Source: an uncultured Burkholderiales bacterium
GTDB lineage: Bacteria; Pseudomonadota; Gammaproteobacteria; Burkholderiales; Burkholderiaceae_C
Assembly (NCBI GenBank): GCA_903892175.1
Contig: CAITHK010000157.1
Span: 1-36,912 of the forward strand
DNA length: 36,912 nt
Direction: 5' to 3'
Position 1 is the first letter of the stretch. Each line of letters opens with the position of its first letter. Made by a program: the position numbers and the translations under genes. The notes under the pieces were generated by a model. It was given only the letters and a program-made list of their open reading frames with translations, was not told where the DNA came from and did not search any database. Below, piece by piece: positions 1,432 to 34,162 of the stretch.

Positions 1432-1464
1432 GGGGCATACCTTGGTGTGTGATCGCGGACCGGT

Positions 1465-2061: not shown

Positions 2062-2069
2062 AAACGCTT

Positions 2070-3712: not shown

Positions 3713-3713
3713 C

Positions 3714-5174: not shown

Positions 5175-5183
5175 GGCATCTCC

Positions 5184-5975: not shown

Positions 5976-5984
5976 CAAGCGCTT

Positions 5985-7025: not shown

Positions 7026-7041
7026 CAACAACTCCTTCAGG

Positions 7042-7905
7042 TTAAAAGTCAGACAGATTTACGGCGTTTAGATTTGGCCGAGGCAGAAGAAGGCTTGAGC
7101 TGGGCCAACCCTTCCAGCAAGGTGGTGGTGTTGGAGACAAGCCATGCAGCTGTTGCACCACGTAAAGAATGGCGCGGCTCACATAGCTGGGTGACACTGT
7201 GCTGCAGACGTCTTCGAGCAGCACACAGTCGTAGCCCAAAAAGTTGGCGTCTTGCAAGGTCGAGAACACACAGCGATCGGTGTTGACGCCTGCAAACAGC
7301 AAGGTGGTGGCCCCTTGCAAGCGCAGCACGCTGTCGAGTTCGGAATCCCAAAACCCCGACAAGCGGTGTTTGAACACCACCATGTCTTCGGGCAACACGG
7401 GCAAGGCATCAATCACTGCGGCACCCCAGGTGCCGGGCACCAACGAAGGCCCATGGTCCTCGGGTGAATGTTCGGCATAGCCCACACCGTCTGGTGTGCG
7501 CTTGGCTTTGAACTGCATGGTCGGGCCGAGGTTGAGGCGGTCGGGGCGTACGCCCCAGTTCAGCCACAACACCTTGCCGCCTGCTTCGCGCCACGGCCCC
7601 AGCAGTGCGTTGAGCGGGGCCACCGGGCGAAGCAGGGCCTTCAAGCTCAAGCCCCTTTGACCAAACCAACCTTTGGGATGGCAAAAGTCGTTTTGCATGT
7701 CCACCACGATCAACACGGTTCGCACCACATCAATCTCAATGCACTGCGGCTGTGCATCTAAGCGCACGCTTTTAGCGCGCAGCTGTGGACGAACGAAGCT
7801 GACGCGCTCGGCATTGACATCCCACCGATGCAAGGCGGAGGGTCCATAGGAGGTGCTGGCACTGGGCGGCGAGGCCTGGGTTGTGGCGGCGTTGGTGCGT
7901 TTCAT
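7042..7905 (-). CDS. Isochorismatase-fold cysteine hydrolase with an apparent 3' frameshift
   Basis: The catalytic triad is visible: D69 in VVDMQNDF, K179 in VFKHR and C212 in NTDRCV, as in ureidoacrylate, biuret and related amidohydrolases that release ammonia or carbamate from ring-opened ureides. A leader of about 55 residues precedes the domain. The frame stays family-like to QQLHG (residue 255) and then turns into a Pro/Ser-rich tail. The -1 alternative frame continues with FVSNTTTLLEGL-like sequence, the family's normal C-terminus, and stops at 7049. One extra base at about 7139-7141 would restore a 285-residue protein. Either a sequencing error or a real frameshift altering the last 30 residues. 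It is the first gene of the leftward operon, divergent from the LysR gene. Confidence 0.85.
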   Translation of the reverse strand: MKRTNAATTQASPPSASTSYGPSALHRWDVNAERVSFVRPQLRAKSVRLDAQPQCIEIDVVRTVLIVVDMQNDFCHPKGWFGQRGLSLKALLRPVAPLNALLGPWREAGGKVLWLNWGVRPDRLNLGPTMQFKAKRTPDGVGYAEHSPEDHGPSLVPGTWGAAVIDALPVLPEDMVVFKHRLSGFWDSELDSVLRLQGATTLLFAGVNTDRCVFSTLQDANFLGYDCVLLEDVCSTVSPSYVSRAILYVVQQLHGLSPTPPPCWKGWPSSSLLLPRPNLNAVNLSDF

Positions 7906-8008
7906 GCCCTGTGTGTACGCACGTGACGTGCCAAAACACGTTGCCTATAAATGTTTTTTAACGTTTTACCCGATGCTTAAAAAGCAACGCACATGGCCTT
8001 GTTATTGC
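7906..8008. promoter_or_regulatory. Divergent promoter/operator region of the catabolic locus
   Basis: This 103-base spacer separates the leftward operon from the rightward LysR gene. It contains a 13-base palindrome, GCACGT-G-ACGTGC at 7919-7931, ten bases or so from the leftward start codon. A more A/T-rich stretch follows (about 7945-7990) with CCTATAAATG, an AACGTT palindrome and a short GCTT-AAA-AAGC stem. These are plausible operator and promoter elements for the divergent LysR regulator. I did not find unambiguous -35/-10 pairs. Confidence 0.5.
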
Positions 8009-8950
8009 ATGACACAACAACCCAAGCCCACACCTGCCATGAACCACCTGCGCTTTTTGAACTACATCGACGAGATTGCCCGTGCTGGATCGATCCGGCA
8101 AGCGGCAGAGCGTCTGCATGTGGTGGCCTCTAGCGTCAATCGGCGTTTGCTCGACTTTGAAGAGGAGCTGGGCACGCCCATTTTCGAGCGACTGCCGCAC
8201 GGTATGCGGCTCACTGCTGCGGGCGAGCTGTTCATCAACTACATCCGCAGCCACCGAGCGGCTTTGGACCAAACCCGTTCGCACATTGAAGAGCTCAAGG
8301 GGCTTCGACGGGGGCAGATTCGCTTGTTGGTCAGCCAAGGCGTGGCGGTGAGCTTTTTGCCGCGTGCCATTGCTTTGTTTCAACAGACCCACCCCATGGT
8401 CGAATTCCATGTGCTGGTGTTGGACCATGTGCAAGCCCTCAACGCCTTGCGCAACTACCAAGCTGATTTGGCCTTGGTGTTGAACCTGCCCGACGAAGCA
8501 GACATCGAACGTTTGCTGGTGTTGCCTCAGCCCTTGAAGCTGATGCTGCACCGCAGCCATCCCTTGGCCAGTCAACGCGAAGTGCGTCTGCGCGATGCCT
8601 TCAATTACCCGGTGGTCCTGCCCGACGCGGATTTTGGTGCCAGACGCCTGTTGCAGCGCTACCTCAAGCGCAGCAGCTTGACGCTGGCACCCGTCATCAC
8701 CAGCAACAGCTTTGAATTTTTGCGCGGCTGCTTGCACCACAACCAGATGGTGAGTTTTCAGTTCGACATAGGCTCGCAAGACGAGGGCGGCCAGTTGGCC
8801 GTGCGCGACATTGCAGAGCGTGGTTTTCCAAGCGGCGAGCTGGTGCTGGCGCGTTTGCGCGGGCGGCAACTCGAAGTCATCACCAACGTCTGGGTCGAAG
8901 CCCTTCAGCAACAGTTGCAAAAACCCACAGCCCACATCCACAAAGTTTGA
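8009..8950 (+). CDS. LysR family transcriptional regulator
   Basis: A 313-residue regulator. The winged helix-turn-helix covers the N-terminal 70 residues (RAGSIRQAAERLHVVASSVNRRLLDFEEELGTPIFER in parts, with the GTPIFER wing), followed by a periplasmic-binding-like effector domain starting near GQIRLLVSQGVAVSFLP. The ATG at 8009 or the one at 8039 (MNHLRF, 303 residues) could be the start; neither has a strong ribosome binding site, and the second puts the helix-turn-helix at the usual distance from the N-terminus. It is divergent from the cysteine hydrolase operon and is followed after 17 bases by the ring-opening amidohydrolase, so it probably senses the ring compound and controls both directions. 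Confidence 0.88.
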   Translation: MTQQPKPTPAMNHLRFLNYIDEIARAGSIRQAAERLHVVASSVNRRLLDFEEELGTPIFERLPHGMRLTAAGELFINYIRSHRAALDQTRSHIEELKGLRRGQIRLLVSQGVAVSFLPRAIALFQQTHPMVEFHVLVLDHVQALNALRNYQADLALVLNLPDEADIERLLVLPQPLKLMLHRSHPLASQREVRLRDAFNYPVVLPDADFGARRLLQRYLKRSSLTLAPVITSNSFEFLRGCLHHNQMVSFQFDIGSQDEGGQLAVRDIAERGFPSGELVLARLRGRQLEVITNVWVEALQQQLQKPTAHIHKV

Positions 8951-16683: not shown

Positions 16684-17715
16684 ATGATCGAGACCGACGC
16701 CGTCATCGTGGGTGCCGGGCCGGTCGGGCTCTTCCAAGCCTTTCAGCTCGGACTGCAAGACATTCGCTGTCACCTCATCGACGCCCTGCCCCATGTGGGT
16801 GGCCAATGCGCCGAGTTGTACGCTGACAAACCCATCTACGACATTCCCGGTCTGCCGTTTTGCACCGGACGCGAATTGGTCGAGCGTTTGCAACAGCAAA
16901 TTCGTCCGTTTGCCCCCCACTTCCACCTGCACCAAGAAGTCAGCCAAGTGGCGCAAAGGCCCGACGACCGCATCGACGTGCACACTTCGGCGCAGCAACA
17001 CTTTGTGTGCAAAACCTTGTTCATTGCGGCAGGTGTGGGCGCGTTCCAACCGCGCAAGCTCAACCTAGAAGGTGCTGCGGAGCTGGAAGGTCGCCACATC
17101 CATTACCACCTGAGCGAAACCACACGGTTGGCAGACCAGCATGTGTGGGTGCTGGGTGGCGAAGCCCAAGCCGTGGACACGGCCTTGCAACTGAGCCAGG
17201 CCACCGACCACGCCCCCGCAAGCGTCACGCTGATCCACCGCCGCGATGTGTTTCAAGCCGAACCGCAGGCGCTGAGCGCCATGCGCGAAGCCGTGGCCGC
17301 TGGCCGCTTGCAGTTGCAAATTGGGCAGATCACCGCCTTGCAAAGCGCCAACCAACACTTGCAATCGGTGCACGTGGCCACCCCCGAGGGTGAGACCGTG
17401 GCGCGAGCCGCGCAGCAGTTGCTGGTGTGCTGGGGCTTGTCCCCAAAGCTCGGGCCCGTGGCCCACTGGGGCTTGGAGATGGCGCGCAAGCAATTGGTGG
17501 TGAACACCGAAAACTTTGCCACCTCGGTGCCTGGCATTTTTGCGGTGGGTGACATCAACACCTACCCGGGCAAGAAAAAACTCATCCTGTGTGGTTTTCA
17601 CGAAGCCACCTTGGCCGCCTTTGGTGCCGCCGACATCGTGCACCCCAACCGCAAAACCTTGTTGCAATACACCACCACCTCAAGCGAGCTGCACCGCTTG
17701 CTGGGTGTGTCGTAG
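16684..17715 (+). CDS. Ferredoxin-NADP+ reductase, thioredoxin-reductase-like type
   Basis: A 343-residue flavoprotein. The FAD-binding motif VGAGPVGLFQAF is at residues about 8-19, the NADPH-binding segment VWVLGGEAQAVDTALQL near residues 155-171, and the FAD C-terminal motif FAVGDINTYPGKKKLILCGFHEA near residues 281-303 in parts. The absence of a CxxC redox pair and the GKKKLI...GFHEA segment separate it from thioredoxin reductase and place it in the type-2 FNR group. It would exchange electrons between NADPH and the ferredoxin encoded just upstream. Confidence 0.9.
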   Translation: MIETDAVIVGAGPVGLFQAFQLGLQDIRCHLIDALPHVGGQCAELYADKPIYDIPGLPFCTGRELVERLQQQIRPFAPHFHLHQEVSQVAQRPDDRIDVHTSAQQHFVCKTLFIAAGVGAFQPRKLNLEGAAELEGRHIHYHLSETTRLADQHVWVLGGEAQAVDTALQLSQATDHAPASVTLIHRRDVFQAEPQALSAMREAVAAGRLQLQIGQITALQSANQHLQSVHVATPEGETVARAAQQLLVCWGLSPKLGPVAHWGLEMARKQLVVNTENFATSVPGIFAVGDINTYPGKKKLILCGFHEATLAAFGAADIVHPNRKTLLQYTTTSSELHRLLGVS

Positions 17716-17744
17716 AATTCATTTCGCGTTTTAAATCACGCATC

Positions 17745-17828
17745 CGCTGGGGGTGTTGGTGTCTCGACAGACATCGACTGAGAAAGTCCCTTTGAACCTG
17801 ATTGAGGTAATCCTCGCGCAGGGAAGCT
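17745..17828 (+). promoter_or_regulatory. TPP riboswitch (THI element)
   Basis: The aptamer core is clear: GGGGGTG on the 5' side, a P3 hairpin formed by GGTGTCT and AGACATC around a CGAC loop, the invariant CTGAGA (17788-17793), then CCCTTTGAACCTGAT, a P5 hairpin GAGG-TAAT-CCTC, and the closing CGCAGGGAAGC. All conserved TPP-contacting segments are present in order. It precedes the LuxE-like gene at 17912, so thiamine pyrophosphate should repress that six-gene operon. No other THI element was seen in the window. Confidence 0.95.
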
Positions 17829-17846
17829 TGTCAAAAGAACCGGTAC

Positions 17847-17860
17847 AGGGACATCTCCCT
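17847..17860 (+). promoter_or_regulatory. Candidate riboswitch expression platform hairpin
   Basis: AGGGA (17847-17851) and TCCCT (17856-17860) form a 5-bp stem with loop CATC. The same TCCCT could instead pair with AGGGA at 17820-17824, part of the aptamer's closing strand, so the two pairings exclude each other when ligand fixes the aptamer. No T run follows, so control would be translational or Rho-dependent rather than by an intrinsic terminator. The start codon is 52 bases downstream. Confidence 0.4.
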
Positions 17861-17911
17861 CTCCACTGCCGATTCCCAGTCAGCCCCCTGCTTGTTGCAA
17901 GTGAAACACAG

Positions 17912-18997
17912 ATGGCTTCTGACGCGTCCACGATTCCTGCTGACTTGCTGAACTTCTTCGCCTTGCCCGAGGTGAGCGACGACGACTTCAATGCCATGGC
18001 GCTGCGTCTGTTTGCCCATCAGGTGCAGCACAACCTGCCCTTCCAGCGCTTTTGCCAGCTGCGCGGCAAGACGCCACGCACCGTCAAACACTGGCATGAC
18101 ATTCCGGCTGTGCCGATCAACGCCTTCAAAGACCTCACCCTCAGCTGTGTGCCGCCAGACACGTGCGCACGCGTGTTCATGACCAGTGGCACCACGCGCG
18201 GCGATGTCAAAGGCCACCACCACCACCCTGCGCTTGAGGTGTACGACAGCTCCATGCGCCTGAACTTTGCGCAGCAGGTGATGCAAGGCCAAACCCGCAT
18301 CCGCATGGGGGTTCTGTTTCCCGACGAAGTGGCATTGCCCCACTCGTCGCTGGCCCACTACCTGCAACTCGCCCTCACGCACTTTGGCACGGCAGACAGC
18401 GGCTACTTCATGGGCGCGCTAGGCTTGGACATTGCTGGGCTGAGCGCCGCGCTGCAACAGGCACAAGACTCCGGGCAGCCGTTTGCCTTGCTGGGCGCGA
18501 GCTACAGCCTGGTGCATGCCATGGACGCCCTGGCGGCCCTGGGCCAATCCTTCAAGTTGCCCGCAGGCAGTTGGCTGTTTGACACCGGGGGCTTCAAAGG
18601 CCAGTCGCGCGAGATTGACATGGATGCGTTTTACGACCAGCTCTCGGCCACCTTCGGTGTGCCACGCACGCATTGCATCAACATGTACGGCATGACCGAG
18701 CTCAGCACCCAGTTCTACGACCGGGGCAATGCCACGGTGCCATCGGTCAAACGCGGGCCGCACTGGATTCGCTCGCGTGTTATTGACCCGATCAGCGGGC
18801 GCGAGATGCCACGCGGCGAACGCGGCATTTTGGTCCACACCGATTTGGGCAACTACAACGCCGTAACCACCATCTTGACCGAAGACGTGGGCGTGGCCAC
18901 CGATGACGGCTTTGTGCTGCTGGGCCGCGCCCAGGGCGCGCAGGCCAAGGGCTGCTCGCTGGCGGTAGAAGACTTTTTGAAAGCGGCACGCGCATGA
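17912..18997 (+). CDS. LuxE-like acyl-protein synthetase/acyl-adenylating enzyme
   Basis: A 361-residue member of the LuxE family, related to ANL adenylating enzymes. MTSGTTRGDVKGHH near residue 90 is the phosphate-binding loop and NMYGMTELSTQFYD near residues 258-271 is the adenylate-binding motif. GCS 14 residues from the C-terminus matches the region where LuxE carries its acyl-accepting cysteine. In luminous bacteria LuxE activates fatty acids with ATP and hands the acyl group to LuxC. Here it lies directly under a TPP riboswitch with no luxA/luxB, so the acid is more likely a thiamine-related carboxylate; this is inference. I start at ATG 17912; an upstream open frame runs through the riboswitch. 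The stop overlaps the next gene start (ATGA). Confidence 0.85.
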   Translation: MASDASTIPADLLNFFALPEVSDDDFNAMALRLFAHQVQHNLPFQRFCQLRGKTPRTVKHWHDIPAVPINAFKDLTLSCVPPDTCARVFMTSGTTRGDVKGHHHHPALEVYDSSMRLNFAQQVMQGQTRIRMGVLFPDEVALPHSSLAHYLQLALTHFGTADSGYFMGALGLDIAGLSAALQQAQDSGQPFALLGASYSLVHAMDALAALGQSFKLPAGSWLFDTGGFKGQSREIDMDAFYDQLSATFGVPRTHCINMYGMTELSTQFYDRGNATVPSVKRGPHWIRSRVIDPISGREMPRGERGILVHTDLGNYNAVTTILTEDVGVATDDGFVLLGRAQGAQAKGCSLAVEDFLKAARA

Positions 18998-20460
18998 GCA
19001 CGCTGAGCTTCAAAGCGGGCTACCTGCCAGGTCTGTCAGATCATGAGGTGGATTGGCACACCTTGCACTTTGGCACGCCTGAGCACCCCCTCACGGTGCA
19101 GGTGCAGGTGCCGCAGCTCAGCGCTGCACACATGACCGCCTTGGCCTCGCGCGTGCGCCAAGCCAGCCGCACACAGTTGCAACACTGGCCGGTGTCGGAG
19201 ATGGTGGCCGTGATCGACCGTGCCGTGGCGCGTTTGCTCGACAGCCGTGACCCCTACCGCCAACAGCTCGACACCTTGCTGCCGCATGTCACCGGCTTGG
19301 ATGCCGAGATGGTGCGCATCCACCTCAGCGCCTACTTGCAGACCTTTCGGGCCCTGCAACTGCAACGCTTTGTGGTGGAAGACTTTGCCAACCCGCTGCT
19401 GCTGGATGCGTTTCAGCCCCGCGTGGGTGGCGGCTGGAGCAAAGCCTGTGGCCCCGAACTGATCGCCCATGTGTGGGCGGGCAATGTGCCGGGCTTGCCC
19501 ATGTGGAGCCTGATCTCGGGCTTGCTGGTCAAAGCGGGCTCGGTGGGCAAAGTCGCCAGCGCCGAGCCGGTGTTTGCCAGTGTGTTGGCGCGTGTGCTGG
19601 TGGCGGTGGAGCCGCGCTTGGCCGACTGCCTGGCCGTGGTGTGGTGGCCTGGCAGCGACACGGCGCAATCAGCCCCCTTGTTTGCACAGGCCGAGGTGGT
19701 GCTGGCCTATGGTGGCAACACCGCCTTGCAAGCCATGCAACAACACGTGCCTGTGACCGCACGCTTTTTGCCGCATGGCCACAAGCTGAGTTTTGGCATG
19801 GTGTCCACGGCGGCGTTGACGCTGCGCCGCGCCAAGACCACCGCGGCGCTGGCCGCGCAGGACGTGGCGCGTTACGAGCAGCAAGGGTGCTACTCGCCGC
19901 AGATGTTTTATGTACAACGTGGCGCCCAGGTGAGCCCGCACGAGTTTGCCCAAAGCCTGGCCAGCGAGCTGGCCGCCCTGGGCCACAAGTTTGTGCGCCG
20001 TCCCTTGTCGCTAGAAGAAGCCGCAGGCGTGGCCGCTTGGCGCGAGTCACACGAGTTCGCCATGGTCAACGGCCCCAGCACCCAGGTGTTGGGCGACGCC
20101 ACCCAAGCCTGGGCCGTGGTTTACCGCGACGCGCCCACACCCCTGCAACCCGGGCCCTTGAACCGCTGCGTGGTGGTGGCCGCTGTCGACACGCTGGACG
20201 AAGTGGCCGAGCTGGCCCATGCCCAGCGCGACCACTTACAAACCGTGGGACTGGCCGCAGCCCCCGAAGAACTGCTGCGGCTGGGCGCGTCCCTGGCGCA
20301 AGCGGGTGTGACGCGCATCTGCGCCATGGGCGCCATGACCGCCCCCGCTGCGGGTTGGCACCACGACGGGCGCTTCAGCCTGCTGGATCTGGTGCGCATG
20401 GTGGACATCGAAGCCTCCACCGAAGCGGCTGGCGAGCACTTCACCGCGTATGCGCCCTGA
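18994..20460 (+). CDS. LuxC-like acyl-CoA/acyl-protein reductase
   Basis: A 488-residue aldehyde-dehydrogenase-superfamily protein of the LuxC group, which reduces an activated acyl group to the aldehyde with NADPH through an acyl-Cys intermediate. HVWAGNVPGLPMWSLI (about residues 159-174) and AYGGNTALQAM lie in the cofactor-binding half. C299 in QQGCYSPQ is the likely catalytic nucleophile. Four-base overlap with the LuxE-like gene and 11-base overlap with the ABC ATPase gene show tight coupling. The natural substrate is unlikely to be a fatty acyl group given TPP control; it may be the acyl product of the LuxE-like partner. Confidence 0.85.
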   Translation: MSTLSFKAGYLPGLSDHEVDWHTLHFGTPEHPLTVQVQVPQLSAAHMTALASRVRQASRTQLQHWPVSEMVAVIDRAVARLLDSRDPYRQQLDTLLPHVTGLDAEMVRIHLSAYLQTFRALQLQRFVVEDFANPLLLDAFQPRVGGGWSKACGPELIAHVWAGNVPGLPMWSLISGLLVKAGSVGKVASAEPVFASVLARVLVAVEPRLADCLAVVWWPGSDTAQSAPLFAQAEVVLAYGGNTALQAMQQHVPVTARFLPHGHKLSFGMVSTAALTLRRAKTTAALAAQDVARYEQQGCYSPQMFYVQRGAQVSPHEFAQSLASELAALGHKFVRRPLSLEEAAGVAAWRESHEFAMVNGPSTQVLGDATQAWAVVYRDAPTPLQPGPLNRCVVVAAVDTLDEVAELAHAQRDHLQTVGLAAAPEELLRLGASLAQAGVTRICAMGAMTAPAAGWHHDGRFSLLDLVRMVDIEASTEAAGEHFTAYAP

Positions 20461-21217
20461 CACCTTGAGCACCCTACCCGTGCTGCGTTTGCAGCAGCTG
20501 CGCTACGCCTACGCCACGGGGGCTGAAGCGGTGCGCAACGTGAGCTTGGACATCGCACCCGGCACTGTGCACTGCTTGGTCGGGCGCAGCGGCTGCGGCA
20601 AAACCAGCGTGCTCAAACTCGCGGCGGGCTTGCTGAGTCCCCAACACGGCCAGGTGCTGTGCCAAGGTGAACGCGTGAACGGGCCGAGAGCCGACATGGG
20701 CTTTGTGTTTCAACACCCCACGTTGCTGGAGTGGCTCAGTGTGGTCGACAACGTGCTGTTGCCCGTCTCGCTGCACCGCACTGTTCGCAGCAGCGACCGC
20801 GACCAAGCCACACACCTGCTCACGCGCATGGGCTTGGGCGCTCACACGCAGCACAACACGCTGACCTTGTCTGGCGGGCAGCAAAGCCGGGTGGCGCTTG
20901 CCCGTGCGCTGATGGGCGAGCCAAACATGTTGTGCATGGACGAGCCGTTTGCAGCACTCGACGCCATCACCCGCGAAGAGCTGCAACACGACTTGCTCGC
21001 GCTGTGCGCACAACAAGGCACCTCGGTGCTGTTTGTCACCCACGACATGGCCGAAGCGGTGTACCTGGGCGATCACGTGTCGGTGATGCAGCAAGGCCAG
21101 ATCGTCCACACCTTGCCCATTGCGCTGCCCCGGCCACGCAGCAACGCGCTGCGTCACAGCGCCGAGTTCAATGCGGTGTGTGCCCAGTTGCGTCACGCCA
21201 TGGAAGCGGGGCTGTGA
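20450..21217 (+). CDS. ABC transporter ATP-binding protein, ThiZ-like
   Basis: A 255-residue ATPase. Walker A is GRSGCGKTS (residues about 41-49), the Q-loop is in VFQHPTLLEWLS, the signature is LSGGQ, Walker B is MLCMDEPFAALD, and the switch His is in LFVTHD. The FQ-P-LLEWL style is shared with importers of the sulfonate/nitrate/thiamine-pyrimidine group. Its position under the TPP riboswitch supports a thiamine-precursor importer (ThiXYZ-like). The start lies inside the end of the LuxC-like gene; the stop overlaps the permease start. Confidence 0.9.
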   Translation: MRPDTLSTLPVLRLQQLRYAYATGAEAVRNVSLDIAPGTVHCLVGRSGCGKTSVLKLAAGLLSPQHGQVLCQGERVNGPRADMGFVFQHPTLLEWLSVVDNVLLPVSLHRTVRSSDRDQATHLLTRMGLGAHTQHNTLTLSGGQQSRVALARALMGEPNMLCMDEPFAALDAITREELQHDLLALCAQQGTSVLFVTHDMAEAVYLGDHVSVMQQGQIVHTLPIALPRPRSNALRHSAEFNAVCAQLRHAMEAGL

Positions 21218-21981
21218 TGCGCCACACACGTCTTGTGTCCTGGATGCTCGGCCTGCTGTGCTTGGGCGCGTGGGAGCTGGCGGTGCAGCAGCTGGCCACG
21301 TCGGCCTTGGTGCTGCCCGCGCCTTCTGTGATTGCCAGCGCCTTGTGGCGGGGCTTGAACAACGGTTACCTGTGGCCGCATGTGTGGCAAACCCTGACCG
21401 AAGTGGGCTTGGGCCTGCTGCTGGGCGGCAGCCTGGGCTTTGTGGGTGGCGTGGCCCTGGGCCAATCTGCCCGTCTGCGTGGCGTGTTGATGCCCTATGT
21501 GGTGCTGAGCCAGGTGGTGCCCAAACTCGCGCTGGCCCCCCTCTTCATCGTGTGGTTTGGTTTTGGCACCTTGCCCACGGTGGTGATGACGGGGCTGATT
21601 TGTTTTTTCCCCCTGCTCGAGAACACCGCCACGTGCATGCAGCAAGTCGATGCACAACGGCTGGAGCTGTTTCGCATGCTGCGTGCCACGTCATGGCAAA
21701 CGCTGTGGCGTTTGAAAATTCCAGCGGGATTGCCCCACATCATGGCGGGCTTGCGCGTAGCCGTGGTGCTGGCGTGGGTGGGTGCGGTGGTGGGCGAATT
21801 CATTGGCGGCAGCAAAGGCCTGGGGGCTTTGATCATTGCGGCCCAAGGCTCGATGGACACGCCTTTGATGTTTGCTGTGCTGGTGCTCATCACCGCGCTG
21901 GGTATCTTGAGTTACAGCGGCGTGCAAGCGCTTGAGCGCCGATTCTCACCTTCCTCTCCTTTGACTTCTTTGAAAGTTTGA
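21217..21981 (+). CDS. ABC transporter permease, ThiX-like
   Basis: A 254-residue BPD_transp_1 permease with about six hydrophobic segments. LVLPAPSVIASAL after the first segment is typical of the TauC/SsuC/ThiX group, and the EAA-type loop is near RLELFRMLRATSWQTLWRLKIPAGLP. I start at the ATG at 21217 (MRHTRLVSW), which overlaps the ATPase stop (TGATG arrangement); upstream open frame lies within the ATPase gene. The binding protein follows after three bases. Confidence 0.9.
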   Translation: MRHTRLVSWMLGLLCLGAWELAVQQLATSALVLPAPSVIASALWRGLNNGYLWPHVWQTLTEVGLGLLLGGSLGFVGGVALGQSARLRGVLMPYVVLSQVVPKLALAPLFIVWFGFGTLPTVVMTGLICFFPLLENTATCMQQVDAQRLELFRMLRATSWQTLWRLKIPAGLPHIMAGLRVAVVLAWVGAVVGEFIGGSKGLGALIIAAQGSMDTPLMFAVLVLITALGILSYSGVQALERRFSPSSPLTSLKV

Positions 21982-21984
21982 CGC

Positions 21985-23061
21985 ATGACTTTTTCCACAC
22001 TTTGCTCGGGCTTGCCGCTTGCCAATACAAGAGCGTCAGCGCTACTGTCAGCGCGCCTATCCACGCGTCTGTTGGCGGGCTTGCTGGTCAGCCTGTTGAT
22101 CGCGGCCAGCACTTGGCCTTTGAGCAGCCAAGCCCAGTCGCCCGCCAAGGCCGACAAAGTGGTGGTGGCGGGTTGGAGCAAGCCCATCACCGAAATCACC
22201 AACCTGCTGGTGGAAGAGGACAAAGGCTTTTTCAAAGCCCGTGGCATTGAACTCGCCTACGTCCCCGGTGCCGGTGGCGGCGACGCGTTGCGCAACATCT
22301 TGAGCGGCCAGGCCGACATCGCCTTCACCGACCCAGGCTCCTTCTTCGCTGCGCTCGACAAGGGCGAGAAGCTGCGCGCCATCTACGACATTTATCCGCA
22401 GAACGTGTTCAACGTGGTGTCACTCAAGTCCCAAAACATCACCAAACCGGCCGACCTCAAAGGCAAACGCATTGGGGTGTACAGCCTTGCCAGCGGCACC
22501 CGGCAAAACCTGCAAGTGCTGTTGCACCAAGCCGGCTTGAGCGAGTCTGACGTGACCGTGGTGGTGACGGGCTTGTTGAACTTTGCGCCGCTGATGCAAG
22601 GCCAAGTCGACGCCACCGCCGCCACCGACACCGGCTTGTTGGTGGGCAAACAAAAGGGCTTGGGTGACGTCCACGTGATGGAAGTGAAGAACTACGTCAA
22701 CATTTCCAGTGACTTCTTTGTGGTGCGCGAAGACACCTACGTCCAAAAGAAAGATGCGCTCAAGCGCTTTTTGCAGGCCTACCAAGACAGCGCCGAGTGG
22801 ATGATGCGCTCGCCGCAAGAAGCGGCCAAACTGGCGGTGAAGGTGGCGATTGACGGACAAAACGAAGCCATCAACTTGGAGGTCATCAAGCTGCGCAACG
22901 CGTCCAGTGTGTCGACCACCACCGCACAGCGTGGCTTGGGTGCTTTTGATTTGGTCGCGCTGCAAAAAGGCGCGCAAGCCTACAAGGCGTTTGGCGTGAT
23001 TCAGCGCGACATCAAGGTCAGCGACGTGGTCAGCCAAGACCTGTTGCCCGGCAAAAAATGA
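21985..23061 (+). CDS. ABC transporter periplasmic binding protein, NMT1/THI5 (ThiY-like)
   Basis: A 358-residue secreted protein. An unusually long N-terminal region (about 35 residues) leads to a hydrophobic segment LLAGLLVSLLIAA and cleavage near SQAQS. The mature part has KPITEITNLLVEEDKGFFKARGIEL in pieces, then GGDALRNILSGQADIAFTDPGS, the NMT1/THI5 fold. I do not see the Cys-rich CCCFC motif of yeast Thi5, as expected for a binding protein rather than an HMP synthase. Riboswitch control predicts a thiamine precursor ligand. A later start would shorten the leader; none has a better ribosome binding site. Confidence 0.88.
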   Translation: MTFSTLCSGLPLANTRASALLSARLSTRLLAGLLVSLLIAASTWPLSSQAQSPAKADKVVVAGWSKPITEITNLLVEEDKGFFKARGIELAYVPGAGGGDALRNILSGQADIAFTDPGSFFAALDKGEKLRAIYDIYPQNVFNVVSLKSQNITKPADLKGKRIGVYSLASGTRQNLQVLLHQAGLSESDVTVVVTGLLNFAPLMQGQVDATAATDTGLLVGKQKGLGDVHVMEVKNYVNISSDFFVVREDTYVQKKDALKRFLQAYQDSAEWMMRSPQEAAKLAVKVAIDGQNEAINLEVIKLRNASSVSTTTAQRGLGAFDLVALQKGAQAYKAFGVIQRDIKVSDVVSQDLLPGKK

Positions 23062-23840
23062 GCGCGCCCACTGCACGCTTTGACGGCCAAGTGGTTTTGG
23101 TCACCGGGGCCAGCCGGGGCATTGGTGCGGCCATTGCCAAAGCCTTTGCGCGCGAAGGCGCGCTGGTGTTGGTGAACTACCTGCACAACGCAGCCGCCGC
23201 GCAAGAAGTGGTCATGGCCTGCGAGCAAGCGGGCGGCCAAGCCTGGGCACTGCAAGCCGATGTGCGCGCGCCTGAGGCCGTGCAAGCCATGGTGGCCCAA
23301 GCGGTGGCCGAGACCGGACGCATTGATGCGGTGGTGAACAACGCCTTCAGCCCCTACGCGTTTGACCCCGAGCACCGCCAGCGGTTTTGGGAGTTGCCCT
23401 GGAGTGCCTACCAAGGCCAGTTCGACGGGGCGGTGCAAGCGACCTATCACGTGTGCCAAGCGGTATTGCCCCACATGCGTCAACGGGCCAAGGGCAGCAT
23501 CGTCAACTTGGTGAGCGACCTGGTGCAACGCCCCAGCATTGCCTACCACGACTACACCACCGCCAAGTCAGCACTGGTGGGATTTAGCCGTAACTTGGCC
23601 ACTGAGCTGGGGCCTTTGGGCATTCGGGTGAACTGTGTGGCCCCTGGCTTGGTGAGCCCTACGACGTCGAGCCAGTACACCAAAGAAGCGGTGAAAGACG
23701 TGCTGGTGGCACAGACCCCTCTGGGCCGCTTGGCCACGCCTGACGACGTGGCAGGCCCGGTGCTGTTTTTGGCTTCCGACTGGAGCCGCTTCATGACCGG
23801 TCAGGTGCTGGTGGTCGACGGTGGCTTGGTGATGGCATGA
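23058..23840 (+). CDS. SDR family oxidoreductase at the end of the riboswitch operon
   Basis: A 260-residue classical short-chain dehydrogenase similar to FabG-type reductases. The cofactor motif is TGASRGIG (residues about 16-23), followed by NNAFSPYAF, and the catalytic pair lies in YHDYTTAKSAL. The C-terminus has TGQVLVVDGG. The start overlaps the binding-protein stop by four bases (ATGA). As the last cistron of the TPP-controlled operon, it could reduce the aldehyde made by the LuxE/LuxC pair to an alcohol such as the hydroxymethyl group that ThiD phosphorylates; this is inference from order and chemistry. Confidence 0.88.
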   Translation: MSAPTARFDGQVVLVTGASRGIGAAIAKAFAREGALVLVNYLHNAAAAQEVVMACEQAGGQAWALQADVRAPEAVQAMVAQAVAETGRIDAVVNNAFSPYAFDPEHRQRFWELPWSAYQGQFDGAVQATYHVCQAVLPHMRQRAKGSIVNLVSDLVQRPSIAYHDYTTAKSALVGFSRNLATELGPLGIRVNCVAPGLVSPTTSSQYTKEAVKDVLVAQTPLGRLATPDDVAGPVLFLASDWSRFMTGQVLVVDGGLVMA

Positions 23841-23908: not shown

Positions 23909-24757
23909 TCAGCCGCGCAGGTGCATGGCCACAGGCGCAAAGCCGTGGTTGAGTGGCCCGTGGCCGTGGCCGGTGGTCACGGCTGCGCCGTGCTCGATGG
24001 CGCCCAAGATAAAGCGCCGTGCCAGCGTGACGGCCTGCGCCAAGTCGTGCCCCAAGGCCAGGTGTGCGGCAATGGCCGACGACAAGGTGCAGCCCGTGCC
24101 ATGCACATTGCGACTGGCAATGCGGCGCGACGCCAACCGTTGCGACACGGTGCCGGGTTGTGCCAGCAGGTCCACCACCTCGTCACCGGGCAAATGCCCG
24201 CCTTTGAGCAACACCGCGCGAGCACCTTGGGCCAACAGATCTTGTGCGGCGGCTTCAAGCGCATCTGCGTTGGCAATGTCGTGCCCCAGCAGCAAAGCGG
24301 CCTCGTCCAAATTGGGGGTGATCACGCGGGCACGCGGGAACAGCTCGCGCACCAACACCTGCACGGTCTCGCTGGCGATCAACCGGTCCCCGCTGGTGGC
24401 CACCATCACGGGGTCGAGCACCACGTTGTTGAGTTGGTAATGGTCGATGGCCCATGCCACCACCTCCACGATGGCGGGTGCGTGCAGCATGCCGATCTTG
24501 ACGGCATCCACACCCATGTCTTCCACCACCGACTGGATTTGCGCTTTCAAAAACTCAGCCGGTATGCCATGTATGCCCTGCACGCCCACGGTGTTTTGCG
24601 CAGTCAGCGCGGTGATGGCGCTCATGCCATAGCAGCCCAAGGCGGCAAAGGTTTTGAGGTCAGCCTGAATGCCTGCGCCACCGCCGCTGTCCGAGCCCGC
24701 AATGGTGAGGACGCGTGCGTAGTGCAAGGGAGAAGAGTGGGTGGGGGTGGTGCTCAT
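23909..24757 (-). CDS. thiD: Hydroxymethylpyrimidine/phosphomethylpyrimidine kinase
   Basis: A 282-residue ribokinase-fold kinase that phosphorylates HMP and HMP-P to HMP-PP. AGSDSGGGAGIQADLKTF near residues 20-37 (in parts) is the family N-terminal signature. LDPVMVATSG, VITPN, and the C-terminal HGTGCTLSSAIAA with the catalytic Asp region are present. I start at the ATG ending at 24757 rather than at TTG at 24775. It converges with the riboswitch operon (68-base gap, no clear terminator) and diverges from thiO across 53 bases, which leave room for only short promoters and contain no riboswitch. Confidence 0.94.
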   Translation of the reverse strand: MSTTPTHSSPLHYARVLTIAGSDSGGGAGIQADLKTFAALGCYGMSAITALTAQNTVGVQGIHGIPAEFLKAQIQSVVEDMGVDAVKIGMLHAPAIVEVVAWAIDHYQLNNVVLDPVMVATSGDRLIASETVQVLVRELFPRARVITPNLDEAALLLGHDIANADALEAAAQDLLAQGARAVLLKGGHLPGDEVVDLLAQPGTVSQRLASRRIASRNVHGTGCTLSSAIAAHLALGHDLAQAVTLARRFILGAIEHGAAVTTGHGHGPLNHGFAPVAMHLRG

Positions 24758-24810
24758 GCGTTGAATTATCCGCAACTCGCTTCAGGTATTTTTCAGAAAG
24801 ACAGAGATCA

Positions 24811-25896
24811 ATGAGTTCACCACAACACAGCGTGGTTTTGGGTGCGGGCCTGATGGGTCGCTTGTTGGCCCACAGCTTGGCAAGACTCGGTCACCGGGTT
24901 GAAGTGCACGAAGCTCTGGGCCCCGATGCACAAGGCGCAGCGGCCCGTGTGGCCGCGGCCATGCTGGCACCGCTGGCCGAATCGGCCATCACCGAACTGC
25001 CGGTGGTGCGCATGGGCCAGCACGCGCTGACGCGCTGGCCTGAATTGATGGGGCAGTTGCAGCAACCGGTTTTTTTTCAGCAAAACGGCACCTTGATCGT
25101 GTGGCACCGCCAAGACGCAGGCGAAGCCCAACGCTTTGAACAACTGCTGGCGCGCACCCACACCCAACTGCCCAGCCTACCCGCATCCCAAAGCCTGGAC
25201 ACAACAGCACTGGCGGCCTGCGAGCCCGCGTTGGATGGACGCTTTCAACGCGCCTTGTATTTGCCTGAGGAAGGCCAACTCGACAACCGCCAGTTGTTGG
25301 CGGCCTTGTTAGACAGCCTGCACACACAAGGCGTTGCACTGCACTGGCAAAGCCCAAAATCGCCCAGCGACTTTGCACCGGGCACACCGGGCCAACCCGA
25401 TTGGGTGTTTGATTGCCGTGGCCTGGGCGCGCGCACCGACTGGACACAGCTGCGCGGTGTGCGCGGCGAGGTGGTGCGCCTGCATGCACCCGAGGTCACG
25501 CTGCTGCGGCCCACGCGCTTGATTCATCCGCGTTACCCGATCTACATCGCGCCCAAAGAAGACCATGTGTTTGTGATTGGGGCCACCGAAATTGAAACCG
25601 AAGACCTGTCGCCTGCCAGCGTGCGCTCGACCCTGGAGTTGTTGAGCGCGGCCTACACCGTGCACAGTGGCTTTGCAGAGGCACGCATTTTGGAAATCAA
25701 CAGCCAAGCGCGCCCCACCCTGGCCGACAACCAGCCTGCGGTGCGCTGTTTGAGCCCGCGCTGCGTGCAACTCAACGGCTTGTACCGCCACGGCTTTTTG
25801 ATTGCACCGGCCATGCTCGACGTGGCGCTGGAATGGGTGGAGCACCAGAGCACTGAGCTTGCGGCAAAATTTGCATTGAAGTTTGAACATGTCTGA
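24811..25896 (+). CDS. thiO: FAD-dependent glycine oxidase ThiO
   Basis: A 361-residue D-amino-acid-oxidase-family flavoenzyme that oxidises glycine to dehydroglycine for thiazole synthesis in aerobes. The FAD motif is VLGAGLMGRLLAHSLA near residues 7-22. VFDCRGLGAR and VRGEVVRLHAPEV lie in the middle, and YRHGFLIAPAM near residues 320-330 is the substrate/flavin-binding segment. I start at ATG 24811 because the longer frame overlaps thiD's promoter and start. It overlaps thiS by eight bases and begins the thiO-thiS-thiG-thiE run. Confidence 0.93.
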   Translation: MSSPQHSVVLGAGLMGRLLAHSLARLGHRVEVHEALGPDAQGAAARVAAAMLAPLAESAITELPVVRMGQHALTRWPELMGQLQQPVFFQQNGTLIVWHRQDAGEAQRFEQLLARTHTQLPSLPASQSLDTTALAACEPALDGRFQRALYLPEEGQLDNRQLLAALLDSLHTQGVALHWQSPKSPSDFAPGTPGQPDWVFDCRGLGARTDWTQLRGVRGEVVRLHAPEVTLLRPTRLIHPRYPIYIAPKEDHVFVIGATEIETEDLSPASVRSTLELLSAAYTVHSGFAEARILEINSQARPTLADNQPAVRCLSPRCVQLNGLYRHGFLIAPAMLDVALEWVEHQSTELAAKFALKFEHV

Positions 25897-26104
25897 AACC
25901 ACCACCATCCGGGTGCTGATCAACCAAGCCCCACACGATCTGAGCGCAGGTGCCACATTGGCCGATGCGGTGCAACACGCAGGCATTCAGCCGCCGTTTG
26001 CTGCCGCCGTGAACCTGCAATTTGTACCGCGTACCCAATATGCCCAACACAGCTTGAATGACAACGACCAGATTGAATTGATCGCGCCCATCACGGGCGG
26101 TTGA
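25889..26104 (+). CDS. thiS: Sulfur carrier protein ThiS
   Basis: A 71-residue ubiquitin-like protein ending in the required GG (PITGG). Its C-terminal thiocarboxylate donates sulfur to thiazole synthase. ATLADAVQH and the acidic DNDQIELIAPI stretch are typical. I use the ATG at 25889 (MSETTT), which overlaps the thiO stop. ThiG starts 18 bases after the stop. ThiF, the adenylating partner, is not in the window. Confidence 0.94.
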   Translation: MSETTTIRVLINQAPHDLSAGATLADAVQHAGIQPPFAAAVNLQFVPRTQYAQHSLNDNDQIELIAPITGG

Positions 26105-26122
26105 TCGCAACCCCACCACACC

Positions 26123-26917
26123 ATGCCTCACACGACCTCTCTCACGCTCTACGGCGAAACCTTTGCCAGTCGCTTGCTGCTGGGCACCTCGCGCTACCCC
26201 TCACCCAGCGTGTTGCTGGCTGCCATTGAGCGCGCCAAGCCCGCCATGCTGACCGCCTCGTTGCGCCGACAAACCGGCAGCGGCGGTGAAGCCTCGCAAA
26301 GTTTTTGGAACCTGCTTCGCCAAGCCGGTGTGCCGGTGTTGCCCAACACCGCGGGTTGCCACAGCCTGCAAGAAGCCATCACCACCGCCGAGATGGCACG
26401 TGAGGTGTTTGAAACCGACTGGATCAAGCTGGAGCTGATCGGTGACGACTACACCTTGCAACCCGACACCTTGAACTTGCCCGAAGCAGCCAGCCGCTTG
26501 ATCAAAGCCGGCTTCAAAGTGCTGCCCTACTGCACCGAAGACCTGGTGTTGTGCCAACGCCTGGTGGACGTGGGCTGCCAAGCCGTGATGCCCTGGGCGG
26601 CACCCATTGGCACCGGCAAAGGCCCCGTCAACCCCACCGCCTTGCGCACACTGCGTGAGCGGCTGGATGTGCCGCTCATCGTCGATGCTGGACTGGGCTT
26701 GCCTTCGCACGCCTGCCAGGTGATGGAATGGGGCTACGACGCCGTGTTGCTCAACACCGCCGTGGCGCTGGCCCAAGACCCGGTGCGCATGGCCGGCGCG
26801 TTTGCCGACGCGGTGGATGCAGGCCACAGCGCTTATGTGGCGGGCGCCATGCAAGCGCAAGACAGCGCCCAACCCAGCACCCCCGTGTTGGGCACACCGT
26901 TTTGGCACCAAGCATGA
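26123..26917 (+). CDS. thiG: Thiazole synthase ThiG
   Basis: A 264-residue TIM-barrel enzyme that joins DXP, dehydroglycine and ThiS thiocarboxylate into the thiazole phosphate carboxylate. K102 in WIKLELIGDD is the Schiff-base lysine. TLQPDTLNL, MPWAAPIGTGKG (phosphate binding) and VDAGLGLPSHA are family landmarks. The stop overlaps the thiE ATG. Confidence 0.96.
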   Translation: MPHTTSLTLYGETFASRLLLGTSRYPSPSVLLAAIERAKPAMLTASLRRQTGSGGEASQSFWNLLRQAGVPVLPNTAGCHSLQEAITTAEMAREVFETDWIKLELIGDDYTLQPDTLNLPEAASRLIKAGFKVLPYCTEDLVLCQRLVDVGCQAVMPWAAPIGTGKGPVNPTALRTLRERLDVPLIVDAGLGLPSHACQVMEWGYDAVLLNTAVALAQDPVRMAGAFADAVDAGHSAYVAGAMQAQDSAQPSTPVLGTPFWHQA

Positions 26918-27810
26918 ACGCTCACGAGATCGCCCATGCCATTGCGCAACAACATGCCCACATGTTGGCCGGTGAGCCGCAAAGCCATGCACAAGCACCC
27001 TCGGACAACACCTTGACGCCCGAGATGGCGGGTGTTCTGAAAGGCTGTCGCCTGCTGGGCTTTTTGGAACACGACGCGCAGTGCGTGATGCACGCCTGGC
27101 AACAACAAAGCCTGCGTCTGGGTGGTTTTGATGTGAGCGCATGGCCTGTACACCCCGCAGACTTTGGCATCGCGCCCGCGCCCAGAGTCCACGCGTTTGC
27201 GCCCTGCCCGCACGCCTTGGGTTTGTACGCCGTCCTGCCAGATGCGCAGTGGGTGGGCCGCATGGCACGTGCTGGTGTGCCCACGGTGCAACTGCGTTTC
27301 AAGTCGGACGATGCCGCCGCCATTGCCCACGAGGTACACGCCGCCGTGGCCGCTGTGCAAGGCACCCAGGCTTTGCTGTTCATCAACGACCATTGGCAGG
27401 CCGCGATTGATGCAGGAGCCTATGGCGTGCATCTGGGCCAAGAGGACATGGCCGATGCCCCCTTGCAAACCATCCGCGCTGCAGGCCTGCGCTTGGGCTT
27501 GAGTACCCACGGCTACGCCGAGATGCTGCGCGCCGATGCGGTGTCACCCAGCTACATCGCGCTTGGGGCTGTGTTTCCCACCACCTTGAAGCGCATGGCC
27601 ACCGCACCACAAGGCATGGGACGTTTGCAGGCCTATGCCCGCTTGATGCAGCAGCACCCGTTGGTGGCCATTGGCGGCATTGACGAATCGCGCTTGTCTG
27701 CGGTGTTACAGACCGGTGTGGGTTCGGTGGCCATGGTGCGTGCCATCACCGATGCGCCAGATCCACAAGCGCGTGCACAAGCCTTGATGAAAATCATGCA
27801 GGCGGCCTAG
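26914..27810 (+). CDS. thiE: Thiamine-phosphate synthase with an N-terminal extension
   Basis: A 298-residue protein. The ThiE TIM barrel begins near residue 103 (LGLYAVLPDAQWVGRMARAG) and contains TVQLRFK, FINDHW, GVHLGQED, the family's STHG and GAVFPTTLKR. It couples HMP-PP and thiazole phosphate to thiamine phosphate. Typical ThiE is about 210 residues; here an extra 100-residue N-terminal part (with AWPVHPADFGIAPAPR before the barrel) has no motif I can name, although long N-termini occur in other betaproteobacterial ThiE proteins as I recall. It overlaps thiG by four bases, and its 3' end overlaps the convergent LysR gene by 17 bases. Confidence 0.92.
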   Translation: MNAHEIAHAIAQQHAHMLAGEPQSHAQAPSDNTLTPEMAGVLKGCRLLGFLEHDAQCVMHAWQQQSLRLGGFDVSAWPVHPADFGIAPAPRVHAFAPCPHALGLYAVLPDAQWVGRMARAGVPTVQLRFKSDDAAAIAHEVHAAVAAVQGTQALLFINDHWQAAIDAGAYGVHLGQEDMADAPLQTIRAAGLRLGLSTHGYAEMLRADAVSPSYIALGAVFPTTLKRMATAPQGMGRLQAYARLMQQHPLVAIGGIDESRLSAVLQTGVGSVAMVRAITDAPDPQARAQALMKIMQAA

Positions 27811-28791: not shown

Positions 28792-28886
28792 ATTTGATTT
28801 ATCCATTTGCTAAATGCTGAAATCTATCCTAAATTGATTTGAATTCTGGATTCACGACAGAGTTCACCAATAAGGAAATTACAGAA

Positions 28887-31054
28887 ATGGCTGAACGTTC
28901 ATTCCTTGCGGAGGTTGAAAAACTCAAGCTCGGTGCCGGCGAAGAATTTCACGGCGAGGGCATTTTGGCTGTGACCAAAGCCTTATTACAGTCTGGCGTG
29001 TCCTATGTAGCGGGTTACCAAGGCGCGCCCATCTCACATTTGATGGACGTGCTCACAGACGCCAACGATATTTTGTCGGAGCTGGGCGTTCACTTTGAAC
29101 ACAGTGCCTCTGAGGCCACAGCCACCGCCACCTTGGCAGCGTCTGTGAATTACCCACTGCGAGGTGCGGTGACGTTCAAATCAACCGTGGGCACCAATGT
29201 GGCCTCAGATGCTTTGGCCAACCTGGCGTCCGGCGGGGTCATTGGCGGAGCCATGCTGATTGTGGGTGAGGACTACGGCGAAGGCTCCAGCATCATGCAA
29301 GAGCGCTCACACGCGTTCGCCATGAAATCACAAGTCTGGTTGCTTGATCCCAGGCCCAATCTGCCCAGCATCGTCAATGCCGTTGAAAAAGGCTTTGAGT
29401 TGTCAGAGGCCAGCAACACCCCCGTGATGCTGGAGCTGCGAATCCGTGCCTGCCATGTGCATGGTCAATTTCCGACCAAAGATAACGTACGCCCCACCTT
29501 CACACTGAAGGATGCCATTGAACACCCCAAGCGTGACGTCAGCCGAATCGTGTTGCCGCCGTCCAGCTATTTGCACGAGCAAGAAAAAATCAAAGAACGT
29601 TGGCCAGCGGCCGTTAAATTCATTCAAGACCAGGGGTTGAATGAATTTTTTTCGAGCTCAGCGAAAGACTTTGGCATTGTGCTGCAAGGCGGCATGTACA
29701 ACGGCGTGCTTCGCGCCTTGGAAGTGCTGGGTTTGGCCAATGCGTTTGGCGAGTCTCAAATTCCGCTGTATGTGCTGAATGTCACCTACCCTTTGGTGGA
29801 CGATGAATTCAAAACCTTTTGCACGGGCAAGCGTGGACTGATGATTGTGGAAGAAGGTCAACCCGACTTCATTGAGCAAAATATCCATTCCATTTTGCGC
29901 AAAGCCGATTTGCAAACATCCGTTCACGGCAAAGAATTTCTGCCCATGGCCGGCGAATACACAGGCGGCGTCATTTTGCAAGGCGTGAAAAGTTTCATCA
30001 AACTGTATGCCCCCGAATTGCTGAGTGCGTCAGCGCATGACGAGCACGCGGCGCAAAGCTCAGCGCTGGTCACCCAGGCTGTTGCCGACGCCACTGCGCA
30101 AGTCCTGCCTCGCCCGCCTTCCTTTTGCACAGGCTGCCCTGAGCGCCCCATCTTCACAGCCATCAAAATGCTCGAAAAGGAATTAGGGCCACGGCACATC
30201 AGCTGTGACATTGGCTGTCACCTCTTTTCAATCTTGCCCCCATTCAATGTGGGCGCTACGACCATGGGCTATGGTCTTGGCTGGGCGGGCGCATCTGCGT
30301 TCAATACGCCTGAAACCCAACACCGCACCATGGCCATCATGGGCGATGGAGGCTTTTGGCACAACGGCCTGACCAGCGGCGTGGGCAATGCAGTCTTCAA
30401 CCAAACGGACAACGTTTTATTGGTGGTGGACAACGGCTATTCAGCCGCTACGGGTGGACAAGACGTTTTGTCTTCGAAGGCGATCAACCCCATTCGCAGC
30501 ACCAACAACCCGATCGAAAAAGCCGTCAAGGGTGTGGGTGTCAATTGGGTGAAAACCGTCACGCACACCTACAGCCTGGATCAAATGCGAGGTGCGCTAA
30601 GGGATGCCTTAACAACCTCAACCCGAGGTCCTAAAGTGGTTGTGGCGCAAAGCGAGTGCATGCTGAACCGCCAACGTCGGGTGAAACCGCAAATTCGCCA
30701 GCTCATCCAAAAAGGCGAGCGGGTGGTTCGCGAGAAGTTCGGCGTTGACCCCGACACTTGCACAGGAGACCACTCTTGCATACGTTTGTCGGGTTGCCCC
30801 TCATTGAGCATCAAAGCGAACCCAGACCCCTTGCGATCAGATCCGGTGGCAGCGGTGGCCGACAGTTGCGTGGGATGCGGATTGTGTGGCGAAGTGGCCC
30901 ATGCGGCCGTTTTGTGCCCCTCGTTTTACCGTGCCGAAATCATCAACAACCCCAATGGATGGGATCGGCTTAAAGTAAAAATTCGCAAATGGGTCATTGG
31001 CCATTTGCAAAACCGCATTGAACGTCGTCTGGATGGTATTTCGGCTGCGGCTTG

Positions 31055-31055
<1 letters not shown>
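28887..31055 (+). CDS. 2-oxoacid (indolepyruvate-type) ferredoxin oxidoreductase, alpha subunit
   Basis: A 722-residue TPP-dependent enzyme subunit of the IorA family, catalysing aryl/branched 2-oxoacid + CoA + oxidised ferredoxin to acyl-CoA, CO2 and reduced ferredoxin. The N-terminal pyrimidine-binding domain (GYQGAPISHLMDV) is followed by the PP domain with CDIGCHLFSILPPFN, GDGGFWHNGLTSG and VDNGYSAATGG. The C-terminal Cys-rich region (TCTGDHSCIRLSGCP and DSCVGCGLCGEVAHAAVLCP) binds iron-sulfur clusters. AAGGAA precedes the ATG at 28887; an upstream TTG start is less likely. The beta gene follows with a one-base overlap. Exact oxoacid is unknown. Confidence 0.9.

Positions 31056-34162
<3,107 letters not shown>

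Follow-up and report, generated by a model that had tools for sequence, protein, structure and literature searches.

A 36,912-nucleotide stretch of DNA from an uncultured Burkholderiales bacterium (contig CAITHK010000157.1 of assembly GCA_903892175.1; the whole stretch is hereafter called the window) carries, behind a thiamine pyrophosphate (TPP) riboswitch, a six-gene operon for a LuxE-like and a LuxC-like enzyme, a three-gene ATP-binding cassette (ABC) importer and a short-chain dehydrogenase/reductase (SDR). Judging from the sequences, this is probably an operon for salvage of the thiamine pyrimidine, which would import 4-amino-2-methylpyrimidine-5-carboxylate and reduce it via the aldehyde to 4-amino-5-hydroxymethyl-2-methylpyrimidine (HMP); the proposed acid would be HMP with its CH2OH group oxidized to COOH. 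A previous sequence-only reading of the window had suggested an unrecognized thiamine-related carboxylate reduction system and named no substrate. That suggestion is supported by the conserved linkage described below, the reduction of a carboxylate itself being suggested by the enzyme families and their conserved residues, and our analysis narrows the system to the pyrimidine branch of thiamine synthesis. The narrowing draws on the joint distribution of thiC and thiG, on the position of thiD in front of luxE in some relatives, and on the exchange of the importer for a nucleobase symporter in others.

The riboswitch aptamer, a THI element of Rfam family RF00059, lies at positions 17739–17841 of the forward strand and was assigned by a covariance-model score above the gathering score (56.2 bits against 54.3, E 1.4e-8). 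A genome-wide search turned up no second RF00059 match in the source genome, an assembly of 3.39 Mb in 312 contigs that is 96.6% complete with 6.55% contamination. Six genes follow on the same strand, encoding the LuxE-like acid-activating enzyme (17912–18997, 361 aa; PF04443, 65 bits; TSGTT motif), the LuxC-like acyl-thioester reductase (18994–20460, 488 aa; PF05893, 296 bits), the ABC transporter ATPase (20450–21217; PF00005, 112.9 bits) and permease (21217–21981; PF00528, 116.4 bits), a periplasmic binding protein of the NMT1/THI5 family (21985–23061; PF09084, 174 bits) and the SDR proposed for the aldehyde-to-alcohol step (23058–23840; PF13561). Along the operon, successive genes overlap by 4, 11 and 1 bases, are then 3 bases apart and finally overlap by 4 bases, which bears out the earlier description of a THI element ahead of six tightly packed genes. 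The start of the luxE-like gene was set at ATG 17912, close to where the LuxE-like family alignment starts, because an alternative frame from a GTG at 17753 (414 aa) traverses the aptamer. No expression platform could be made out for the riboswitch: a search of 17600–18050 gave no terminator-like site, and the aptamer with its leader folds no better than shuffled sequences (z -0.27). The operon also stands, as had been read before, beside thiD and thiOSGE, with thiD for the HMP/HMP phosphate kinase convergent to it (23909–24775, reverse strand; PF08543, 319.5 bits) and, beyond thiD, thiO, thiS (25883–26104, named by its location and GG end), thiG and thiE in that order.

Relatives were collected by a LuxC protein search of genome contigs, and the best 80 of 97 were taken as loci. 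The order luxE-luxC-ATPase-permease-binding protein-SDR is kept in 74 of the 80; five loci are cut by contig ends (L005, L011, L016, L023, L030), and in Pantoea dispersa (L047) luxE, luxC and sdr stand together without the importer. The loci are spread over Burkholderiales, Alphaproteobacteria, Enterobacterales and Bacilli, the last including Geobacillus, Oceanobacillus, Sporosarcina and Neobacillus. Thiamine genes recur at their borders: thiD lies immediately 5' of luxE in 8 of the 80 loci, mostly in Ramlibacter, and convergent right behind the SDR gene in 7, and thiD and thiE together lie upstream of the operon in L074, L077 and L081. In an alphaproteobacterial metagenome-assembled genome (MAG; locus L070, 6521–8813), a riboswitch, thiC (6726–8585), a second riboswitch (8679–8813) and the luxE operon are arranged in series, so that thiC, equipped with a TPP riboswitch of its own, is the gene immediately 5' of the operon riboswitch and luxE.

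For 49 of the 80 loci, and for the window, the genome was searched for RF00059. Matches were assigned to loci by their coordinates inside the correct genome and not by contig number, the numbering having differed, and chance extra coincidences of this placing are visible at L021, L037, L068 and L077; a text-pattern search missed some sites that Rfam detects. A match was found upstream of luxC in 43 of the 49 loci, which come from two phyla, mostly at a distance of 1.1–1.3 kb; the distance is about 2.0 kb in loci that begin with thiD, and 1.7 kb in the Neobacillus group. Among the six misses, the contigs of L002 and L005 start within luxE, that of L006 at the start of luxE, and that of L008 within the aptamer, its first 28 bases being identical to the 3' part of the window aptamer. 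Direct Rfam scans at the gathering score placed a riboswitch upstream of luxE in 3 of 8 loci scanned (L047, L065, L068), with lower scores at L036 (53.1 bits), L040 (53.9 bits) and L052 (42.2 bits) and with L002 and L008 cut; in 3 of 4 loci of a second set (L003, L070, L074), where L046 fell below the gathering score at 52.2 bits; and in 4 of the 5 plasmid copies scanned (L082, L084, L085, L086), to which L087, L088 and L089 are added. Given this gene order and this upstream riboswitch, the association is not due to chance, and the linkage of THI element, luxE and luxC on which the sequence-only reading had staked its case is conserved.

In bioluminescence, LuxE and LuxC are the two halves of a fatty-acid reductase, LuxE activating the acid with ATP and LuxC reducing the acyl group with NADPH. 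The two window proteins match chains of PDB entry 7xc6 and pass the profile cut-offs of their families, PF04443 with an acyl-accepting-type cysteine and PF05893 with a nucleophile-type cysteine. Cys348 of the LuxE-like protein (in KGCS) aligns with a cysteine of the LuxE chain of 7xc6, Cys299 of the LuxC-like protein (in QQGCYSP) aligns with a cysteine of chain A, and neither residue varies across the 40 sequences of its own alignment. Their proposed roles, acyl acceptor for Cys348 and nucleophile for Cys299, we take to carry over from the Lux enzymes. Together, the families and the conserved residues suggest that the operon enzymes would reduce a carboxylate.

Membership of the LuxE and LuxC families would also suit the reduction of fatty acids, that is, a Lux-like formation of aldehyde or alcohol merely brought under TPP control. 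We consider this explanation scarcely credible. The window proteins score far below the cut-offs of the fatty-acid equivalogs (51 bits against 550 for LuxE, NF052244; 106.8 bits against 750 for LuxC, NF052251), and luxD, the thioesterase gene, was found in none of 50 operon-linked genomes (the source genome and 49 others), where the positive control W01 matched at 1.7e-169. The pairing with an NMT1/THI5-type or nucleobase transporter is, moreover, a steady one. In a LuxC tree the 40 operon proteins group together (96/97), and five other members of the LuxC family fall outside; a long branch separates the group from the Photorhabdus-type LuxC among these five, and the placement of the outgroup in this tree is unsure owing to long branches.

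Other LuxC-family genes are found on plasmids (L090, L092, L093, L094), in settings that comprise Salmonella, Streptomyces (a protein of 853 residues) and Chloroflexota. Three of the four adjoin a gene annotated as acyl-protein synthase/synthetase, which suggests further uses of the LuxC/synthetase pair; the direct scan of L090, an outgroup, gave no RF00059 match. As to the third enzyme, the window SDR has its best NCBIfam match in NF006393 (PRK08642; 296.7 bits, cut-off 292), as do the SDRs of five plasmid copies, three of them above the cut-off (L083, L085, L086) and two slightly below it (L082, L084). An SDR called oarX is said to figure in a 2002 Journal of Biological Chemistry paper on the thiamin regulon; a literature search on the name gave nothing.

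The source genome has thiG and yielded no match to PF01964 (thiC), no thiM over the cut-off and no TenA match. Of the 50 operon-linked genomes, 32 gave a thiC match (G011 in pieces only) and 18 did not, and thiG is strong in all except G001, G016 and G049 (47 of 50). The distribution was then counted in a family sample of 250 genomes, each at least 90% complete, in which operon LuxC was defined as a match at least 53% identical (24 genomes) and scored on LuxC alone without neighboring genes; five genomes with only distant LuxC matches (27–34%) were not counted among these, and the housekeeping control rpe was found in 244 of the 250. Operon LuxC is present in 7 of the 10 genomes that lack thiC and have thiG, in none of the 72 that lack both, in none of the 3 that have thiC and lack thiG, and in 17 of the 165 that have both. 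This pattern emerges only once thiG is taken into account. An initial idea, that the operon as such tracks the loss of thiC, found no support, thiC being missing from 7 of 24 genomes with operon LuxC versus 75 of 226 without it.

Counted by genus, which handles kinship among the genomes only in part, the genomes without thiC gave 5 genera with both thiG and operon LuxC, 0 with operon LuxC and no thiG, 3 with thiG and no operon LuxC, and 51 with neither (Fisher p 1e-5). In three genera (g1, g98, g111) the genomes without thiC carry thiG and operon LuxC together or carry neither. The source genome is a contig assembly with some contamination, but the combination of missing thiC with retained thiG is also seen at three loci whose titles do not mark them as MAGs, in Limnohabitans JirII-31 (L003/G002), Ramlibacter paludis (L046/G031) and Oceanobacillus salinisoli (L065/G038), the last of which additionally has thiM and TenA.

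A supplier of whole thiamine is expected in genomes lacking both thiC and thiG, a supplier of thiazole in genomes lacking thiG, and a supplier of pyrimidine exactly where thiG is kept. Thus, the presence of operon LuxC in 7 of 10 genomes with thiG and without thiC, and in 0 of 72 without either, makes it most likely that the operon feeds the pyrimidine branch, rather than supplying thiazole or whole thiamine. Salvage of whole thiamine, in which thiamine acetic acid would be imported and reduced to thiamine, agrees with control by a TPP riboswitch, but it should bring the greatest gain where both precursor branches are missing, which is where operon LuxC is absent, and we regard it as very improbable. 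Salvage on the thiazole side would reduce 4-methylthiazole-5-acetate, a thiamine catabolite and an equally natural acid, to the thiazole alcohol 5-(2-hydroxyethyl)-4-methylthiazole (HET), and thiM, encoding the HET kinase, exceeds its cut-off in 12 of the 50 operon-linked genomes, nine of them Bacilli. This explanation is nevertheless quite improbable, as operon LuxC occurs in none of the 3 genomes with thiC and without thiG as against 7 of 10 with the reverse content, the source genome has no over-cut-off thiM, the gene found adjoining the operon is thiD (thiM was not searched for in the loci), and one variant of the operon has a nucleobase symporter.

The transporters agree with a pyrimidine substrate. 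The binding protein of the window has among its PDB relatives THI5 and 3ix1 (ThiY), which binds N-formyl-4-amino-5-aminomethyl-2-methylpyrimidine (FAMP), and, as an NMT1/THI5-family protein behind a TPP riboswitch, it resembles that of a ThiXYZ importer. In the food lactobacillus plasmids L082 and L088 and the Niallia megaplasmid L087, representing the genera Lactiplantibacillus, Levilactobacillus and Niallia, an NCS2-type nucleobase:cation symporter replaces the ABC genes behind TPP riboswitches and is followed by LuxE, LuxC and SDR (in L088 by annotation only). This symporter belongs to another transporter class but to a nucleobase family, and therefore points to a pyrimidine-like substrate. 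On the L082 plasmid (NZ_CP035118.1, 10,287 bases), the riboswitch-NCS2-LuxE-LuxC-SDR cargo takes up 1390–6321, and a toxin-antitoxin pair and an integrase are located close to it. In L087 a tandem pair of TPP riboswitches (3633–3929) precedes the symporter and enzyme genes. A plasmid of Pseudomonas silvicola (L089) retains a riboswitch at 5688–5815; its luxC (6929–8269), matched in two pieces with the frames split, looks broken.

The same phyletic, riboswitch and transporter evidence would fit a different nucleobase-like carboxylate, perhaps not derived from thiamine, that is reduced to HMP or an HMP precursor, in which case the operon would provide new HMP independently of ThiC and not recycle it; the sequences do not fix the exact acid. 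We hold this to be unlikely, since no molecule simpler than the 4-amino-2-methylpyrimidine acid would be turned by three enzymes of these kinds into the substrate of ThiD, and since the annotated copies inspected hold only LuxE, LuxC, SDR and a transporter (the last missing from two Pantoea copies), with no ring-chemistry enzyme.

The data directly show the layout of the operon, its conservation, its tie to the riboswitch, the conserved cysteines and the distribution among genomes. For salvage of 4-amino-2-methylpyrimidine-5-carboxylate we infer the substrate, the direction, each catalytic step, the cofactors and the regulation as follows. Low TPP would permit expression of the operon, as the class of riboswitch implies, and the NMT1/THI5-type ABC importer would take up an oxidized pyrimidine, most likely this carboxylate. 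The LuxE-like enzyme would adenylate the acid with ATP and then hold it as a thioester on Cys348, from which the acyl group would pass onto Cys299 of the LuxC-like enzyme and be reduced with NADPH to the aldehyde, which the SDR would in turn reduce to HMP, the corresponding alcohol. ThiD would then phosphorylate HMP to HMP pyrophosphate (HMP-PP), and ThiE would couple HMP-PP with the thiazole from ThiOSG. The operon would serve as a source of pyrimidine in bacteria without thiC and as a supplement in bacteria with it. A 1964 title among the references of PMC7780320 names the proposed acid as a metabolite of thiamine in rat urine.

Several points weigh against this proposal. Membership of the Lux families would not by itself prove acid reduction, and the substrate is deduced. 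Two binding proteins with unknown ligand, 3qsl and 4nmy, outscore THI5 and ThiY/3ix1 as relatives of the window protein. Three genomes that lack thiC and have thiG are without operon LuxC (G050, G076, G176), and thiC is kept in 17 of the 24 family-sample genomes with operon LuxC, so replacement of thiC alone does not account for the operon. A TenA-family match in 7 of 24 operon genomes without thiC (the other 17 have none) means that another pyrimidine route may exist there, and with thiM in all nine Bacilli the gene content of that group would also fit the thiazole side. The remaining two of the six riboswitch misses, alphaproteobacterial MAG loci with long upstream sequence (L014, L022), have no RF00059 match even at E 0.1, and the Priestia plasmid copy L083 has none at the gathering score.

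Elsewhere in the window, the thiE frame (26728–27810) carries about 110–150 residues, depending on the start codon, without a Pfam match ahead of the thiamine monophosphate synthase domain. At 28839–32611 lies an adjacent gene pair of the indolepyruvate/pyruvate ferredoxin oxidoreductase type, one gene with a TPP-enzyme C-terminal domain and the other with POR and DUF6537, and next to it are genes for a tripartite ATP-independent periplasmic (TRAP) transporter. TPP riboswitches were also seen near thiO in L008 (6976–7073) and L046 (18066–18177); thiO of the window has none.

On balance we lean toward the wider view that the carboxy form of HMP is a nutrient that is imported in at least two phyla and reduced there by a Lux-type acid reductase put to a new use, which would allow thiC to be lost while the other parts of thiamine synthesis are kept. 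If this is true, some bacteria may dispense with the normal pyrimidine-making enzyme, and calls of thiamine auxotrophy from genomes would change, because bacteria classed as auxotrophic for the pyrimidine may be living on its oxidized form. Our proposal gives a testable vitamin role to LuxE and LuxC homologues whose present annotations read 'long-chain fatty acid--CoA ligase' and 'acyl-CoA reductase' and carry the term bioluminescence, and it predicts a B1 vitamer so far unmeasured. A variant of the system is plasmid-borne, including on the 10-kb plasmid of a food lactobacillus.

Salvage of the thiamine pyrimidine is already known; a Lux-type acid reductase for this purpose would be new. No description of the operon was found in the literature searched, of which supplements and the 2002 thiamin-regulon paper were not part, and an earlier mention is possible. 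LuxC and LuxE do not occur in PMC2258182 and PMC2211319, and in PMC3766115, where they were not among the terms sought, 'acyl' occurs once, within aminoacyl-tRNA synthetases. PMC2211319 reports that thiamine riboswitches in metagenomes precede tauA- and tauC-like ABC genes; these could belong to ThiXYZ or to the present operon. The vitamer table of PMC10881298 holds HMP, 4-amino-5-aminomethyl-2-methylpyrimidine (AmMP), FAMP, HET and carboxy-HET (cHET), and no pyrimidine acid.

Among known systems, the LuxCDE fatty-acid reductase (7xc6) shares with the operon two adjacent genes of the same enzyme families and both conserved cysteines, whereas the operon has a TPP riboswitch, an importer and an SDR, no luxD found, proteins below the fatty-acid equivalog cut-offs, and a LuxC group of its own. 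Salvage of FAMP and AmMP by ThiXYZ and TenA resembles it in the ABC importer, the NMT1/THI5-type binding protein related to 3ix1, the TPP riboswitch and the proposed supply of pyrimidine; in contrast, TenA is missing from the source genome, and the operon enzymes would reduce an acid instead of hydrolyzing an amine or formamide. In the HMP auxotrophy of Pelagibacterales with ThiV, as presented in PMC10881298, thiC is missing, thiG and thiE are kept, external pyrimidine is needed and the transporter gene lies by a TPP riboswitch, all as in the present case, but the compound imported by the operon would need three extra enzyme steps before it reaches ThiD.

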